In this document: one piece after another, positions 31,629 through 38,669 of the stretch
Layout: every line of letters begins with the position of its first letter
Numbering within the stretch: position 1 is the stretch's first letter
Source: Chloroflexaceae bacterium
GTDB taxonomy: Bacteria > Chloroflexota > Chloroflexia > Chloroflexales > Chloroflexaceae
Assembly: GCA_025454695.1 (NCBI GenBank)
Contig: JALONX010000001.1
Coordinates: 1 to 49,436, forward strand
Reading direction: 5' to 3'
DNA: 49,436 bases
Notes under the pieces: model-generated
The model's input: only the letters and a program-made list of their open reading frames with translations
Database searches by the model: none
Told to the model about the DNA's origin: nothing
Made by a program: the position numbers and the translations under genes

Positions 31629-32369
31629 ATGCGCTCGATGCTTCTTGAAACGCATACTGATCCAAAAGCATCTCAGATGCTCGAAATCTTCGCCCAGCGT
31701 CGCTTCTATAGTGCTCGCATGCAGCAGCGAGTGCGCCTCACGCTGCTCTGGTGGGTCGTGCGCACAAAAATCAGCCAGAGCCTTAAACGCACGCTGGATA
31801 TAGGTATTTCCGTTATTGCACTGCTGTTTGCTGCCCCCATTATGCTGCTGACGGCACTTGCCATTAAACTCGACTCGCCTGGCCCGGTGTTCTTTCGACA
31901 AACACGGGTAGGTAAGTGGGGTGAAACATTTGATTGCTACAAATTCCGTTCCATGCACATTGACGCGGAAGAACGTTTGAAAGAGTTGATCGCCAGGAAC
32001 GAAGCCGATGGCCCGGTATTTAAGATAAAAAATGATCCGCGTATTACGCGGGTGGGCCGCATTATTCGCAAACTGAGTATTGATGAACTACCACAAATCT
32101 TCAATGTCCTTAAAGGCGAGATGAGTTGGGTTGGCCCTCGTCCAGCTATTCCGCGCGAAGTGGCCCAGTACACCTACGAACAGGTGCAACGGCTCCAGGT
32201 TATTCCTGGTATTACCGGATTGCAGCAGGTGTCGGGTCGCAGCAATGTGGATTTTAAGCGCTGGATCGAGCTTGATCTCCAGTACATCGCTGAGCAGAGC
32301 CTCTGGAAAGATATCCAGATTCTGCTCAAAACCATCCCGGCAGTTCTTTTCAGTCGCGGTGCCTACTAG
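31629..32369 (+). CDS. Polyprenyl-phosphate sugar-1-phosphate transferase (bacterial sugar transferase, WcaJ/ExoY type)
   Basis: The 246-residue monotopic phosphoglycosyl transferase has a re-entrant hydrophobic helix (about residues 55-80) and then the full catalytic set: KFRSM, DPRITRVGRIIRKLSIDELPQ (broken here into DPRITRVGRIIRKLS and IDELPQ) with the DE dyad, and GEMSWVGPRPAIP. It starts EPS repeat-unit assembly by moving a sugar phosphate from a nucleotide sugar to undecaprenyl phosphate. It keeps every residue that the chimeric protein at 34009 has lost, so it is the likely active initiator of the locus. ATG 31629 has GGAG upstream. A -10-like TACAAT lies near 31574 in the 204-base gap before it. 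Confidence 0.9.
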   Translation: MRSMLLETHTDPKASQMLEIFAQRRFYSARMQQRVRLTLLWWVVRTKISQSLKRTLDIGISVIALLFAAPIMLLTALAIKLDSPGPVFFRQTRVGKWGETFDCYKFRSMHIDAEERLKELIARNEADGPVFKIKNDPRITRVGRIIRKLSIDELPQIFNVLKGEMSWVGPRPAIPREVAQYTYEQVQRLQVIPGITGLQQVSGRSNVDFKRWIELDLQYIAEQSLWKDIQILLKTIPAVLFSRGAY

Positions 32370-32413: not shown

Positions 32414-33931
32414 ATGGGTCAGACTATTGTTTTAATGGGTGTACCAATTGAAGACCTGACGATGGACGAGGCTATGGCCCGTTGTGAACAGTATATTCGT
32501 CATGGTCGAGCAGCGGGAAGCCCCCATTATGTGGCCACTGCCAACACCGATTTCGCCGTTATTTCACTCTACGACCCCGACTTGCGGCGGCTGTTGCTAG
32601 AGGCCGACATGACCACAGCTGATGGGATGCCGCTGGTGTGGGGCGCACGGCTGCTGGGCTTGCCAATCGAAGGCCGGGTTACCGGGTCGGACATGTTGCC
32701 AGCCCTGGCTGAACTAGCCGCTAAAAACGATTTCTCGGTCTTCTTTATGGGTGCGCGGCCTGGCGTTGCCACCCGTGCTGTTGAGGTGTTGCGGGCCAAA
32801 AACCCTGGCCTGAACGTCGCAGGGATCCTTTCGCCACCCAACGCCGCGCTGCTCGACATGGATCCAACTATTGTGGAAACGATACGGGCAGCTAAGCCTG
32901 ACCTGCTGGTGGTGGCCCTGGGCACGCCCAAGCAGGAAAAGTGGATCAAAATGCACCTGCACGAACTCGGTGTGCCGCTGTGCATCGGTGTGGGCGCTTC
33001 CTTTGACTTCCTGGCGGGCACGGCCAAACGCGCGCCGGTGTGGATGCAAAAGGCTGGCCTCGAATGGTTCTTCCGCCTGGTGAACGAGCCACGGCGGCTC
33101 TGGCGGCGTTATGTCCTCGACATGTTCTATTTTAGTGTCTTCTTTGCGCGCCAGTGGTGGGAAATGCGCCGCAAAGGGCCAAACCAGCCCTTGCCACCCC
33201 TCGACATGGGCACAATGGACGACGCCACCATTCTGACTATTCAGGGGCGTATGGATGTACAAAACCAGCAGGCCTTTATTGACAAGGCACAGCAGGCACT
33301 GGACAAACACCCCTACCTGATTGTGGACATGAGCGGGGCAACGTTCCTGGATAGCTCGGCCCTGGGGACACTGGTGAACCTGACGAACCGGGCGCGAAAA
33401 GCTGGTGGTCAACTCTGGCTCACTGGCGTGCCAGCACCCATCTACAATCTGTTTACCATGCTGCGGCTGGAAAACTTCTTTGAACTACGGCCTGATGTGG
33501 CCAGTGCGATCGTTGAACGGCATAGCCTGCCTGAGTCGCTCGTGGCCCAGGAACGAACGGCTTCCCACTGGGGCGTTTTTTCCATGCCCCGCATTGTAGA
33601 TGCCACCAACGCCCCGGCCTTGTATGAGCGCTGCTCCCAGCTCATGGCAACAAATCCGCGCGTGATCCTCGACTTTAGCGAGACCGTTTTTCTTGCCAGC
33701 GCGGGCCTGGCCATCCTGGTTAAGCTGCATCGTTATGGTCAGGAACACAATGGCATGGTGCGCCTGGCCAACTGCACCCGTGATGTGGCCCGCAGTATCC
33801 AACTAGTTAAGCTCGACACACTGTTCACCCTCTACACTGATGTGGAAGCCGCAGCCCAGGCCCAACTCCCGCCATCGGTGGCGGTGCCAGCCAGTCATAT
33901 ATCGCTGCCGGTAGCGCCGAACAGATCATAA
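32414..33931 (+). CDS. WecG/TagA-family glycosyltransferase (GT26) fused to two STAS domains
   Basis: Residues 1-250 are a GT26 enzyme: TADGMPLVWGARLLG (68-82), ALGTPKQEKWI (168-178) and FDFLAGTAKRAP (197-208), followed by the membrane-associating tail with WWEMRRKG. GT26 enzymes transfer N-acetylmannosamine-type sugars to a lipid-linked primer. Residues 266-372 form one STAS domain with FLDSSALGTLV, where Ser314 matches the phosphoserine of SpoIIAA and RsbV. Residues 383-487 form a second, with FLASAGLAILV, where the serine (429) remains but the preceding aspartate has become Ala428. Fusing an EPS glycosyltransferase to anti-sigma-antagonist domains is unusual. A STAS, a PP2C phosphatase and an RsbW-like kinase follow three genes later, so I infer phosphorylation control of the enzyme. 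Confidence 0.88.
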   Translation: MGQTIVLMGVPIEDLTMDEAMARCEQYIRHGRAAGSPHYVATANTDFAVISLYDPDLRRLLLEADMTTADGMPLVWGARLLGLPIEGRVTGSDMLPALAELAAKNDFSVFFMGARPGVATRAVEVLRAKNPGLNVAGILSPPNAALLDMDPTIVETIRAAKPDLLVVALGTPKQEKWIKMHLHELGVPLCIGVGASFDFLAGTAKRAPVWMQKAGLEWFFRLVNEPRRLWRRYVLDMFYFSVFFARQWWEMRRKGPNQPLPPLDMGTMDDATILTIQGRMDVQNQQAFIDKAQQALDKHPYLIVDMSGATFLDSSALGTLVNLTNRARKAGGQLWLTGVPAPIYNLFTMLRLENFFELRPDVASAIVERHSLPESLVAQERTASHWGVFSMPRIVDATNAPALYERCSQLMATNPRVILDFSETVFLASAGLAILVKLHRYGQEHNGMVRLANCTRDVARSIQLVKLDTLFTLYTDVEAAAQAQLPPSVAVPASHISLPVAPNRS

Positions 33932-34008
33932 TCCTCACGTGCAGCGTTGGTACGCTGCATCAACATCGCTGTTCCGACGTTGTGCTTTCAATCTTGCGGT
34001 GATCGTGT

Positions 34009-35739
34009 ATGCATATTTTTCTACTTGCGACAAATGAACATTCTGCACTTTATCCGTTAACTGATACCTTGCCTGCACCACTGCTACCAATTGCCAACCG
34101 TCCTGTCTTGGAACGTACCATCGAAGTTCTGGTGCGGGCTGGCTACAAGGATATGCTGGTCAGTTTGTATCAACAGGGTGGACAAATTGCGGCCTACTTT
34201 GGCAGCGGTAGCCGCTGGGGGGCGCAGATTCAGTATGTCACTCAGCAGGAGGCCTGGGGATCGGCAGGTAGCCTGAAATGGGCCAGTAACCTCTTGAAAG
34301 AGACCGTGCTCGTGCTCCCCGGCCACGCCGTGTTTGATCTCGATATTGAAGCCGCCCTGGCGTTTCACCACCAACATGGCGGCCCTGCCACTGCGATTGT
34401 GCAGTCGAGCAGCTACCGAGGAACGACCCTGATGCAGGCCGATGCGCAGGGGAGGCTCGCGGCCATAGGGCAGGGGTTGCCCAATACAACCCTGGCACCA
34501 ACAGGAGCCTACATTTTTGAGCCGGACGTGCTCCAGTATATTGCGCCCGATAGGGCAGCTAGCTGTGAAGATGATCTGCTACCGGCCCTGTTACGGGCCG
34601 GTGTTGCTGTGTTCTGCCATCAGATGACAGGTTACTGGAACCCGCTGGATAGCGTGCGGGCCTATTATGATGCCCAGCAAGTCTATCTCTATAGTGCCTA
34701 CCGGCAGGCCCACGGCCACCTGAAGGGCAACGACGGGCCACCGCAGCAGGTGCGCTACCCCACCATGAAGGGGCGGCAAATGGCCCCAGGCATATGGGTT
34801 AGCCCAAACACCATCATTCACCCGGCAGCCCAGCTAGCTGCACCGCTATGTGTTGATGAACACTGTTGGATTGACCACGATGTGGAGCTAGGGCCTGGTA
34901 CTGTGATCGGGGCAGGCTCAATTGTTGACTACGGCGCGACACTCTACCATAGCACAGTGTTAGAGCACACCTATGTGGGCCAACTGGTGAACCTGGAGCA
35001 CCGCATTGTGCAGGCAAATACCCTGATTGACCCGACCTCTGGCGATGTTAGCCCGGTGGTTGACCCTTTTTTGCTGGCAGCTGCAATGCCCACCACAACA
35101 GTGGCGAACACGTTCTGGCGCATGATTACCCGTGTTATCGCGCTCGGTACGCTGGTGATGGTAATGCCTTTGCTGTTGTTCCTGACGCTTCTGGCCTTTA
35201 TCAGCACGGGTCGGTTTGTGGAGCGTCAGCGCCGGGTGGGCCAGCGCCATGCGAGTCCCACTGGCTCGCCAGCGTCACAGCAATTCACTGTCTACGCATT
35301 GCCCACCCGGCGTGCGAGTGGCAACCCGACACGCATTGGCGCGTGGATGGAATGCTACGATTTTCAGCGATTGCCCGAATTGATCAACGTCGTGCGGGGC
35401 GACATGGCCCTCGTTGGCGTAAAACCGCTATCGCCTGATGAAGCAAGCCAACTCACCGAAGCTTGGCATCAGCGGCGCTACGATTATGCACCAGGTTTCA
35501 CTGGTCTCTGGTACACTCGTGTGGTAGATACTGATCTCGATAGTACCCTTGTGAATGATGTGTATTATGTTGCTACCCGCAACTGGCGGAGCGATCTGCA
35601 CATCCTGGTTCAAACACCATCAGCCTGGATAAACCGATATACCCACCGTGCTGCGCCGCACCGTACCCCCGTGTCTCAGGACTACGGCAGGTCGTCTGAC
35701 GCATTAAGCAGCACCCGCCAGGAAGAACCCGCTGCTTAA
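34009..35739 (+). CDS. Chimeric protein: degenerate nucleotidyltransferase, left-handed beta-helix and degenerate phosphoglycosyl transferase
   Basis: The 576-residue protein has three parts. Residues 1-230 look like a sugar-1-phosphate nucleotidyltransferase (LYPLTDTLPAPLLPIANRP, EAWGSAGSLKWA), but the GxGTRL loop reads TNEHSAL, the PK lysine is alanine (PAPLL), and the metal site NGD reads PGH. Residues 262-330 are left-handed beta-helix hexapeptides (GTVIGAGSIVDYGA). After a helix (370-398) comes a bacterial sugar transferase-like domain with LPELINVVRGDMALVGVKPL, where the catalytic DE of DELPQ is replaced by QR (453-454) and the KFRSM block is absent. Both enzyme parts therefore look inactive. 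It may act as a membrane scaffold or sensor that binds a nucleotide sugar or the lipid substrate. The frame is intact, so simple decay is unlikely. Confidence 0.8.
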   Translation: MHIFLLATNEHSALYPLTDTLPAPLLPIANRPVLERTIEVLVRAGYKDMLVSLYQQGGQIAAYFGSGSRWGAQIQYVTQQEAWGSAGSLKWASNLLKETVLVLPGHAVFDLDIEAALAFHHQHGGPATAIVQSSSYRGTTLMQADAQGRLAAIGQGLPNTTLAPTGAYIFEPDVLQYIAPDRAASCEDDLLPALLRAGVAVFCHQMTGYWNPLDSVRAYYDAQQVYLYSAYRQAHGHLKGNDGPPQQVRYPTMKGRQMAPGIWVSPNTIIHPAAQLAAPLCVDEHCWIDHDVELGPGTVIGAGSIVDYGATLYHSTVLEHTYVGQLVNLEHRIVQANTLIDPTSGDVSPVVDPFLLAAAMPTTTVANTFWRMITRVIALGTLVMVMPLLLFLTLLAFISTGRFVERQRRVGQRHASPTGSPASQQFTVYALPTRRASGNPTRIGAWMECYDFQRLPELINVVRGDMALVGVKPLSPDEASQLTEAWHQRRYDYAPGFTGLWYTRVVDTDLDSTLVNDVYYVATRNWRSDLHILVQTPSAWINRYTHRAAPHRTPVSQDYGRSSDALSSTRQEEPAA

Positions 35740-35753
35740 AGGAGAAGGATGCG

Positions 35754-36092
35754 ATGAATTTTGAGACTCGCTTTAGCAATAATATTGCTATTCTTGCCCT
35801 GGCCGGGCGTTTTGATACCAACACGGCCCCACCCGTCGCTGCGTGGCTAGAAAAGGCTACCACAACCCCACCGGCGCAAGTTGTGGTGAACCTGGCCCAA
35901 ACTACTTTTGTCGATTCAACGGCGCTGGCCACGCTAGTGCAAGCCCTCAAGCGTAGTCGCCAGGGCCAGGGCGATGTGCATTTGTGTGGCTTACAACGCT
36001 CGGTGTACATGATTTTTGAACTCACCCGCCTCGACAAAGCCTTCAACATTTTTGTGGATGAAGATCATGCGATAGCGGCCTTTACCGAGTAG
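35754..36092 (+). CDS. STAS-domain anti-sigma-factor-antagonist-like protein (RsbV/SpoIIAA type)
   Basis: This 112-residue single STAS domain begins MNFETRFSNNIAILALAGRF and carries TTFVDSTALATLV, with Ser55 at the position phosphorylated in RsbV and SpoIIAA. Such proteins switch partners: unphosphorylated, they bind an RsbW-type kinase, and the kinase phosphorylates them to end the interaction. It lies 14 bases after the chimeric gene with AAAGGAGAAGG in the junction, and directly before the PP2C phosphatase and kinase. It probably competes with, or works beside, the STAS domains fused to the GT26 enzyme. Confidence 0.88.
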   Translation: MNFETRFSNNIAILALAGRFDTNTAPPVAAWLEKATTTPPAQVVVNLAQTTFVDSTALATLVQALKRSRQGQGDVHLCGLQRSVYMIFELTRLDKAFNIFVDEDHAIAAFTE

Positions 36093-36185
36093 CGTTATGA
36101 AAAACCATTTCAGCAATGGTGCTGGTCGCCCATATACTCACCCCAAAGGAGCTGGTGTGCAGTTCCGTACACATGGTAAGGTTTT

Positions 36186-37802
36186 GTGGTTACTTTTAAG
36201 CGTGTCTTTCAAAAACGATCATTGCACGCTGATGCAAACCGGTTGGCACCCCTCGTTGTTAGTACTCCGGTAAATCGTCATACTATGCTTGTTGCACTCC
36301 TGAGTTCTCAATATGCCCGCTTTACCACGTTGGCACAGGCATGGCTGAGTAGTGGTGCCACCAGCTTTGGCGTCTATCAGCAGGGCCGCCCGCTGGCCTA
36401 CTGGCCCATTGGGCAAAAGTTGGCCCAGCCGAGTCTGACGGTGCCCATTCAAGTGGGAAGTGAGGTGGTTGGCGACGTGCGCGTGTCGGGCGTGCATGGC
36501 CAGCAGCACGAAGCTCGCCTGCGGGCCGATGCCGACATGATCGCGTACATGGTGGCACTTGAGAATGAGCTGCAAGGCATGACTGCAGAACTGGTGACCA
36601 GCCAGGATCAGCAATTGTCGCTCTACCGGCTGATGCAGACAATGCGCAGCCATGTAACTATTGAAGAAACCCTGCAAGCGCTGGTACACGAAGCGCTGCG
36701 CATGGTCAAAATTCAGAGCTGTTTTGCGTTGTTTGTTGCGCCCGACCGTGACCCGCTGTTTGTGCAACACCCAACGACAACCATCAATGAAGAGCTGGCC
36801 TGGCGCTGCTACTGGCATGCCCAGACCATGGAGCGAGAACTCCTGCTGCCGAACCCTGATGATACAGCGTGGGCTTCGCTCCCGGTGGAAAGCTTGCTTT
36901 TTGTGCCCATTCACGTTCGTGGCACCATGATGGCCGGGTTGGGCCTGGTGAACCGTCAGGGTGGCGAGTTTTTTGCTGTAGACCTGAAGCTGGCCCGTGC
37001 GATTGCTGACCAGGTAAGCGCCCAGATTGAGAAGGTGCTGCTCTATCAGGAAAGCTACGACCAGGCTAAGCTACGGACGGAAATGGAATTAGCCCGTCGG
37101 GTACAGCTGGATCTGCTGCCGCGCCATGTGCCCCAGGTGCCCGGTTTAGATATTTATGCCCATTCACGGCCTGCCTACCAGGTGGGCGGCGACTTTTTTG
37201 ACTTTATCAGCGAACAGGGCCGCCCGTTCATCTTTTCGGTGGGCGATGTGACCGGCAAGGGCCTTTCGGCGGCGCTGCTGATGACCATGACCCGCAGCGC
37301 ACTGCACAGCAAGGCGCTGTTTATCCCTGACCCTAACCCTGAAATTGTGATGCGCCAGTCACACGAAGATTTGTATCACGATTTCACCCAGGTGGGAGTG
37401 TTTGCGACGGCTTTTGTTGGCCAGTATGAACGGGCCACTCAGCGCCTGATTTACGCCAACGCCGGTCATTCGCCGGTGATCTATCGCCCACGTGATGGCG
37501 CACCCCTGCTGCTGCGAGCCGACAGCACCGCGATTGGGGTATTTGCGGTAAGTCACAGCAAAAACCAGACGATCCAGATGCGCCAGGGAGATTTGTTGAT
37601 TGTTGCAACGGATGGTTTCAGTGATGCTCGCAACCACTCCGACGAAACATTTGACCACGAACGCCTCCTGTATATGGCTGACCGTCTGGTGCAAAAGTCG
37701 GCTCAGGAGATTGGCCAGGCCCTTTTTGATGCCGTGGATCGGTTTAGTAGCGGTCGTCCCCAGGACGACGACCAGACTCTGGTCGTAATCAAGGGAATGT
37801 AG
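36186..37802 (+). CDS. GAF-domain PP2C-type serine phosphatase (RsbU/SpoIIE family)
   Basis: The 538-residue protein has a non-conserved N-terminal region (1-130), a coiled segment and GAF domain (about 145-285), a linker helix (ELARRVQLDLLPRHVPQ), and a SpoIIE-type phosphatase domain to the end. Phosphatase metal sites are visible in YQVGGDFFDF (D336), SVGDVTGKGLSAALL (D354), YANAGHSPVIY and IVATDGFSDARNH. It should dephosphorylate STAS phosphoserines in response to whatever its GAF domain senses. The start is a GTG at 36186 with TAAGG close upstream; a later ATG (MLVALLSS) is possible. It lies 93 bases after the STAS gene and four bases before the kinase gene. Confidence 0.9.
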   Translation: MVTFKRVFQKRSLHADANRLAPLVVSTPVNRHTMLVALLSSQYARFTTLAQAWLSSGATSFGVYQQGRPLAYWPIGQKLAQPSLTVPIQVGSEVVGDVRVSGVHGQQHEARLRADADMIAYMVALENELQGMTAELVTSQDQQLSLYRLMQTMRSHVTIEETLQALVHEALRMVKIQSCFALFVAPDRDPLFVQHPTTTINEELAWRCYWHAQTMERELLLPNPDDTAWASLPVESLLFVPIHVRGTMMAGLGLVNRQGGEFFAVDLKLARAIADQVSAQIEKVLLYQESYDQAKLRTEMELARRVQLDLLPRHVPQVPGLDIYAHSRPAYQVGGDFFDFISEQGRPFIFSVGDVTGKGLSAALLMTMTRSALHSKALFIPDPNPEIVMRQSHEDLYHDFTQVGVFATAFVGQYERATQRLIYANAGHSPVIYRPRDGAPLLLRADSTAIGVFAVSHSKNQTIQMRQGDLLIVATDGFSDARNHSDETFDHERLLYMADRLVQKSAQEIGQALFDAVDRFSSGRPQDDDQTLVVIKGM

Positions 37803-37806
37803 CAGC

Positions 37807-38235
37807 GTGAAAGCACGAGAACCAGAAATGATACAACTCAATCTACCAGCGTCATTCACTTACCTTCACATTCTAAGTGATTGTATCACTACGATGCTTT
37901 CGCATGTTGATACGGTCAACGACCGCGACCTAGTGGTGTACAACGTACAACTTGCCGCTCACGAAGTGTGTACCAATATCGTCAACCATGCCTATGAAGA
38001 AATTGAACAGGGGCGCATTGACATCAAGCTAGTGCTGCATTTCCAGCCTGCGCAACTGGTGATTGAATTTCAGGACACCGGGCGACCATTCGACGTTACC
38101 ACGGTGCCCGAACCAAACCTGGAAGAACCGCAGGTGCATGGGTATGGGATGTTTCTGATTAAAAATTTGATGGACAGCGTGACCTACACACCGCAATCTG
38201 ACGGCAATCGGTGGCAATTGATCAAACATTTGTAG
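37807..38235 (+). CDS. RsbW/SpoIIAB-like serine kinase (GHKL ATPase)
   Basis: This 142-residue GHKL ATPase has an N-box, LAAHEVCTNIVNHAYEE (E53, N57), a G1 box, FQDTGRPFD, and a G2 box, VHGYGMFLIKNLMD. Proteins of this kind phosphorylate STAS antagonists and, in the free state, hold a sigma factor or another target. No sigma-factor gene is present in the window, so its target may be the STAS-fused glycosyltransferase, by inference. The coordinates use the GTG at 37807, which has AAGGGA upstream; an ATG at 37828 (MIQLNLPASF) is an almost equally good start. It lies four bases after the phosphatase stop. Confidence 0.88.
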   Translation: MKAREPEMIQLNLPASFTYLHILSDCITTMLSHVDTVNDRDLVVYNVQLAAHEVCTNIVNHAYEEIEQGRIDIKLVLHFQPAQLVIEFQDTGRPFDVTTVPEPNLEEPQVHGYGMFLIKNLMDSVTYTPQSDGNRWQLIKHL

Positions 38236-38249
38236 GAAAGGACAGTCCC

Positions 38250-38669
38250 ATGGCGACCATTCTCGTGGTCGATGATTACCTACCCAGCCACCGTCTGTTT
38301 TCGTATATTTTGCAGCAGCACGGCCACAGCGTCATCACTGCTCTTGATGGGTTTCAGGCGTTGGAACGACTAGGTGAGTACGCAATTGATCTGGTGCTGA
38401 CCGACCTTGCCATGCCAAAGATGGACGGCGTGAGTCTGTTGCAGCAGATTCGGGCCGATGAGCGCTACACCAGTCTGCCCGTGGTGATGGTAACTGCAAG
38501 CGGGCAGGAGCGTGACAATCTACGGGCCTGTTCAGCAGGGGTTTCATCGTTTCTCACCAAGCCAGTCGACTCTGAAGAGCTACTGCAAACAGTTCAACAG
38601 TTACTTCCTGATGGCAGTCGCGAACGTGTGTGGCTACCGGCCTTCCCACCGCGCCCTTCGAGCGCGTGA
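38250..38669 (+). CDS. Single-domain response regulator (CheY-like receiver)
   Basis: The 139-residue receiver starts MATILVVDDYLPSHRLFSYI. It has the acidic pair D8/D9, phosphoacceptor D52 in LVLTDLAMPKMDG, T82 in VMVTASGQ, and K104 in FLTKPVD. It has no output domain, so it acts through protein contacts. ATG 38250 follows AAAGGA. It is the last gene of the operon, 14 bases after the kinase gene. A histidine kinase is not encoded nearby. It probably feeds a second signal into the partner switch or the EPS machinery. Confidence 0.9.
   Translation: MATILVVDDYLPSHRLFSYILQQHGHSVITALDGFQALERLGEYAIDLVLTDLAMPKMDGVSLLQQIRADERYTSLPVVMVTASGQERDNLRACSAGVSSFLTKPVDSEELLQTVQQLLPDGSRERVWLPAFPPRPSSA

Follow-up and report, generated by a model that had tools for sequence, protein, structure and literature searches.

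Partner switches in polysaccharide loci, partner switches directed at enzymes, a kinase-controlled fusion of an effector to a STAS domain and one STAS-bearing glycosyltransferase are already known, and all of them resemble in part the locus described here. This locus lies in a stretch of 49,436 nucleotides from a Chloroflexaceae bacterium (GenBank assembly GCA_025454695.1, contig JALONX010000001.1, positions 1 to 49,436; hereafter the window), where a glycosyltransferase of family GT26 carries two STAS domains and is encoded together with a partner-switching module. In the SiaABC-SiaD and HsbRA-HsbD systems of Pseudomonas, which are linked to biofilms, a STAS or STAS-like protein controlled by a kinase and a phosphatase acts directly on an enzyme (PMC8457831, PMC5085249), as is predicted for the present locus; there, however, the target is a diguanylate cyclase, on which the STAS-like protein works in trans. 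Partner switches are likewise tied to polysaccharides in Vibrio fischeri (SypA/SypE, PMC4517449) and Nostoc (HmpUVW, PMC8256260), where the output is unknown or is something other than a sigma factor, but their STAS proteins stand alone, their target is unknown and no fusion to a glycosyltransferase is involved. A STAS-fused glycosyltransferase is represented by Anabaena all4160, which, as summarized in PMC8256260 citing Wang et al. 2007, is needed for a polysaccharide layer and differs in having its STAS domain at the N terminus.

In the passages of PMC13373217 on CapK-CapS and VapK-VapS-VapC, the GHKL kinase CapK phosphorylates a STAS serine, the STAS domain of CapS is fused to an effector, and phosphorylation splits the dimer. 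The same arrangement is predicted here, but the CapS and Vap effectors are a DNA-binding repressor or a toxin partner with one STAS domain, whereas Pfam identifies a GT26 enzyme and no DNA-binding effector domain in the present protein; the CapK-CapS passages also describe no free STAS or PP2C module. The GT26 enzyme TagA shares the catalytic core and a C-terminal appendage with conserved arginines, which the appendage brings into the active site; TagA dimers are reported to be inactive and membrane-bound monomers active, but the protein has no STAS domains and its control is ascribed to membrane contact alone (PMC6493773).

What is new is the combination, namely a GT26-STAS fusion encoded with a kinase/phosphatase switch module, of which a literature search largely without subscription papers retrieved no description. 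The sequence evidence makes it probable, well short of certain, that the fused GT26 enzyme is a direct target of its neighboring module, and suggests that polymer synthesis would be switched at the enzyme itself, not through gene expression. The statement in the original prediction that partner switches usually control sigma factors is overstated, given the published enzyme and other non-sigma outputs (SiaC-SiaD, HsbA-HsbD, BgrV-BgrR, CapK-CapS) and the partner switches already known from polysaccharide loci (SypA, HmpUVW). The genes and domains of the locus are as follows.

31629 to 32369, plus strand: phosphoglycosyltransferase (Bac_transf), Pfam 230.7 bits, catalytic DE dyad in RKLSIDELPQ
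32414 to 33931, plus strand: GT26 (WecG/TagA/CpsF) glycosyltransferase with C-terminal appendage, STAS1 and STAS2, 505 amino acids (Pfam, TagA structure match)
33203 to 33529, plus strand: STAS1 domain, residues about 264-372, motif FLDSSALG at 311-318
33563 to 33865, plus strand: STAS2 domain, residues about 384-484, motif FLASAGL at 426-432
34009 to 35739, plus strand: nucleotidyltransferase-hexapeptide-sugar-transferase fusion, apparent double pseudoenzyme, conserved in the cassette (Pfam)
35754 to 36092, plus strand: free STAS protein (RsbV/SpoIIAA-like), motif FVDSTAL (Pfam STAS; one clade of 27 in the tree)
36186 to 37802, plus strand: GAF-SpoIIE/PP2C phosphatase (Pfam GAF and SpoIIE)
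37807 to 38235, plus strand: RsbW-like GHKL serine kinase with N, G1 and G2 boxes (Pfam HATPase_c_2)
38211 to 38669, plus strand: stand-alone CheY-like receiver (Pfam Response_reg)

The six genes first recognized are real by Pfam, keep the stated order and all lie on the plus strand. The free STAS protein, GAF-PP2C phosphatase, kinase and receiver were correctly listed as members of the operon, although the cassette genes at 34009 to 35739 and 31629 to 32369 had been left out. Because of the comparison with relatives, the PP2C gene probably starts at 36285 rather than at the upstream start of the reading frame (36186), and the receiver gene probably at 38250 rather than 38211. An Rfam scan of the window gave no match, and scans for promoters and terminators gave signals no higher than in shuffled sequence.

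Residues 64-233 of the fusion protein match PF03808 with 214 bits, which together with two STAS stretches between 32414 and 33931 bears out the description of a GT26 enzyme with two STAS domains. Mapping onto the TagA structure places T42, D70, R88 and Q174, conserved across the family, at TagA T37, D65, R83 and Q167, and the invariant R221 and R228 at R214 and R221 of the appendage, so that the domain, the catalytic residues and the appendage arginines all identify a GT26 protein. STAS1 starts about 15-20 residues past the appendage in the window protein, and in relatives the two are joined by a proline-rich linker of 18 to 82 residues. The genome of the window also holds a second GT26 gene without STAS domains (contig C815, 2734 to 3414), and such a plain copy is present in most genomes of the window's family (f1).

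The switch components retain the residues expected of them. Ser314 of STAS1 aligns exactly with SpoIIAA Ser58, and the Asp-Ser motif (DS[STA]) is kept in all 29 copies of the fusion. In STAS2 the aspartate is replaced in every one of the 28 readable copies, by alanine in 20 and by serine in 8, and its loss is therefore, by the alignment, a fixed feature of the fusion family; the serine that follows is kept in 27 of the 28, so STAS2 could still be modifiable. The contrast noted at the outset, between a canonical phosphoserine context in STAS1 and an Asp-to-Ala change in STAS2, thus holds across the family, with serine as a second replacement. As expected of an RsbV-type protein, the free STAS protein has a phosphorylatable-type serine in its FVDSTAL motif, and the motif is conserved in orthologues. 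In the kinase E53, N57, D90, G92, G112 and G114 are invariant, as befits an RsbW-like GHKL protein, and its best match in the PDB is RsbW (6m36). The metal-binding motifs GGDF-D, GD-x-GKG, TDGF and DDQT of the SpoIIE family are invariant in the PP2C alignment.

A profile search covering 82 Chloroflexales genomes recovered 29 copies of the fusion in 28 genomes: 26 of the 41 genomes in the window's family, two in family f3 and none in the other two families. A few copies (G402, G404, G409, G429) are not intact: they run into a contig end or are interrupted by an apparent frameshift. Chance or an assembly artefact was considered and is ruled out because the fusion recurs in 28 genomes, single-contig ones among them. 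In an earlier search, which took in 400 Chloroflexota genomes, the full-length fusions were confined to the window's family and one genome of a second Chloroflexales family. A contig scan that used a single protein as query instead of an alignment retrieved one distant GT26 only, and so says little about the distribution outside Chloroflexota. Plasmids yielded no match beyond GT26; every match spanned less than 80% of the query, and the longest (Pelagibacterium, 66% covered) contains no STAS domain in Pfam.

The fusion is closely tied to the switch genes. The original prediction proposed a genome search for GT26-STAS fusions and their neighbors, and this showed the association to be recurrent: of the 27 loci that no contig end truncates, 24 have one or more switch genes adjacent to the fusion. 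In fifteen loci all seven genes of the cassette are present in the same sequence: phosphoglycosyltransferase, GT26-STAS-STAS, pseudoenzyme, free STAS, PP2C, kinase and receiver. The fusion agrees in 27 of 28 genomes both with the PP2C of the module (Fisher 8e-15) and with the pseudoenzyme (Fisher 2e-19), figures that ignore relatedness. The contrast is repeated within genera: fusion and pseudoenzyme are jointly present in three genomes of g2, seven of g3 and one of g4 (G375), and jointly absent from three further g2 genomes, from G086 in g3 and from three g4 genomes. In genus g9 (G380, G416; loci L142, L072, L199) the kinase is the only switch gene retained beside GT26-STAS; the PP2C gene is found on a separate contig, where G380 also has free STAS and receiver. 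Genome G403 carries the cassette twice; switch genes accompany each copy, though no receiver is visible in one of them near a contig end. A frozen accident, in which the fusion hitch-hikes neutrally in a polysaccharide operon with functionless STAS domains, would agree with the fast divergence of these domains, but it is scarcely credible in the face of a phosphosite kept in 29 of 29 copies, strict co-occurrence and the duplicated, switch-bearing cassette of G403.

The remaining cassette genes bear on a second alternative. The phosphoglycosyltransferase gene lies directly 5' of the fusion in most relatives; this cassette member is predicted to initiate the lipid-linked repeat unit. The usual nucleotidyltransferase signature is GG-x-G-x-R...PKP, and it is missing from the nucleotidyltransferase domain of the protein at 34009 to 35739. 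In the sugar-transferase domain of that protein the DE found in the 31629 enzyme (SIDELPQ) is replaced, giving FQRLPEL here and HRLPEL and similar forms elsewhere, and the replacement holds in all ten aligned orthologues. The protein is apparently a double pseudoenzyme, and its role is likely that of a scaffold or regulator. The fused STAS pair may be a docking or assembly scaffold, not a phosphorylated switch, that keeps the GT26 enzyme in one complex with the phosphoglycosyltransferase, the pseudoenzyme and perhaps the free STAS protein, which would be the sole substrate of the kinase. Such a role would account for the loss of the STAS2 aspartate in 28 of 28 copies and for a conserved pseudoenzyme adjoining the fusion, and STAS domains are able to assemble, as in the stressosome. 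It is nevertheless unlikely, because the Asp-Ser motif of STAS1 persists in 29 of 29 copies in a domain with only about 47% identity, and because G380 and G416 have retained the kinase gene next to the fusion.

A third explanation is that the output of the module is transcription, by way of a sigma factor or some other regulator encoded outside the locus, and that the fused enzyme is no more than a secondary target of the module or a sensor for it. The genome of the window has 31 matches to sigma-70 region 2, which would leave room for such a target, but none of these is on the window contig. Queries with the known sigma proteins of the genome found nothing in the fusion-bearing loci; the one exception, in G118, lies about 8 kb beyond. 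No SigB/F/G-type sigma factor (NCBIfam TIGR02980) exceeds the curated cut-off in six cassette-bearing genomes, three of them single-contig, and one control genome passes this cut-off. The cognate sigma factor of a sigma-controlling Rsb/SpoIIA system was thus not found, a result that covers the SigB/F/G class only; other sigma classes are possible targets of the module. The claim that the module is encoded without a sigma factor is upheld to this extent, both for the contig and for the SigB/F/G type in the six genomes. Control of transcription is further favored by G094, G198 and G230, which have the module without the fusion. Set against this, no sigma gene occurs in the fusion-bearing cassette loci and module and fusion co-occur in 27 of 28 genomes, and the explanation is judged improbable, more so than a scaffold.

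Direct control of the GT26 enzyme by its module has to be weighed against several observations. In G094, G198 and G230 the four module genes (free STAS, PP2C, kinase, receiver) are intact although the fusion is absent, so that, as judged from its genes, the module acts, or is able to act, on other targets. The genomes G222, G260 and G267 of genus g6 have fusion and module on different contigs. The fused STAS domains evolve faster than their partners, with mean identities of 0.47-0.51 for STAS1/STAS2 against 0.70 for the free STAS protein and 0.77-0.79 for GT26. A single-sequence AlphaFold model of the fusion, with a predicted local distance difference test (pLDDT) score of 45, was too poor and was not interpreted. 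The PP2C pattern is also looser than that of the pseudoenzyme, a close PP2C occurring without the fusion in six genomes. Among the genomes with PP2C and no fusion, in G359 a contig end falls exactly at the expected fusion site, and G421 may hold a paralogous module instead. In G086, from a Chloroflexus-like genus and without the fusion, the PP2C frame is broken by an apparent frameshift (L143, 9810 to 11337). This is consistent with decay, though an error in sequencing would give the same picture. The proposal that the GT26 enzyme is the target in cis is therefore retained for its architecture, its conserved phosphoserine, the gene linkage and the lack of a local sigma factor, while the idea that it is the sole target is weakened by G094, G198 and G230.

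If the GT26 enzyme is the target, the kinase would dock on STAS1 and phosphorylate Ser314, GAF input would drive the PP2C phosphatase to strip the phosphate from Ser314, and the free STAS protein would compete for the kinase. The probable control point is the monomer/dimer or membrane state of GT26, and the appendage on which this control would be based runs straight into STAS1. Phosphorylation or occupancy of STAS1 would decide whether a pair of GT26 chains stays joined or is released to settle on the membrane. In this way transfer of the second sugar on the lipid carrier, and with it polysaccharide output, would come under control of the switch. The splitting of the CapS dimer and the inactivity of GT26 dimers relative to monomers lead to the prediction of activation by the kinase and inactivation by the phosphatase. 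That the phospho-form is the active one is a guess by analogy with CapS and TagA, only slightly favored, and the opposite polarity is nearly as likely because SypA and SiaC are active when unphosphorylated. A more specific version, in which phosphorylation of Ser314 converts an inactive GT26 dimer into an active membrane monomer, the Asp-less STAS2 is a fixed docking site and the double pseudoenzyme is a scaffold, is tentative and as a whole rather doubtful.

In a tree of 108 STAS domains STAS1 forms one group, STAS2 another, and the two together a third (98/86). Because they are sisters, one fusion event and one tandem duplication suffice, on this tree, for the fused pair. The free STAS protein of the cassette groups with the first STAS protein of a paralogous module (95/82), whose order is free STAS, PP2C, kinase, second free STAS and receiver (contig C912 of the window genome, L074; L148-L153). 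On the STAS tree, the second STAS protein of this module is no more than a candidate source of the fused domains. In G222 the paralogous module sits between glycosyltransferase genes and a polysaccharide-flippase gene.

The targets of the polysaccharide-controlling STAS proteins SypA of Vibrio and HmpV of Nostoc are described as unknown, and the GT26-STAS fusion names a concrete class of target. If the proposal is true, the stand-alone STAS proteins of other polysaccharide loci, such as SypA and HmpV, may also act on glycosyltransferases. The genomes that carry the fusion belong to relatives of the green filamentous bacterium Chloroflexus, and a committed step of polymer synthesis in these relatives of mat-forming phototrophs would then be controlled post-translationally, by serine phosphorylation and with no sigma factor.

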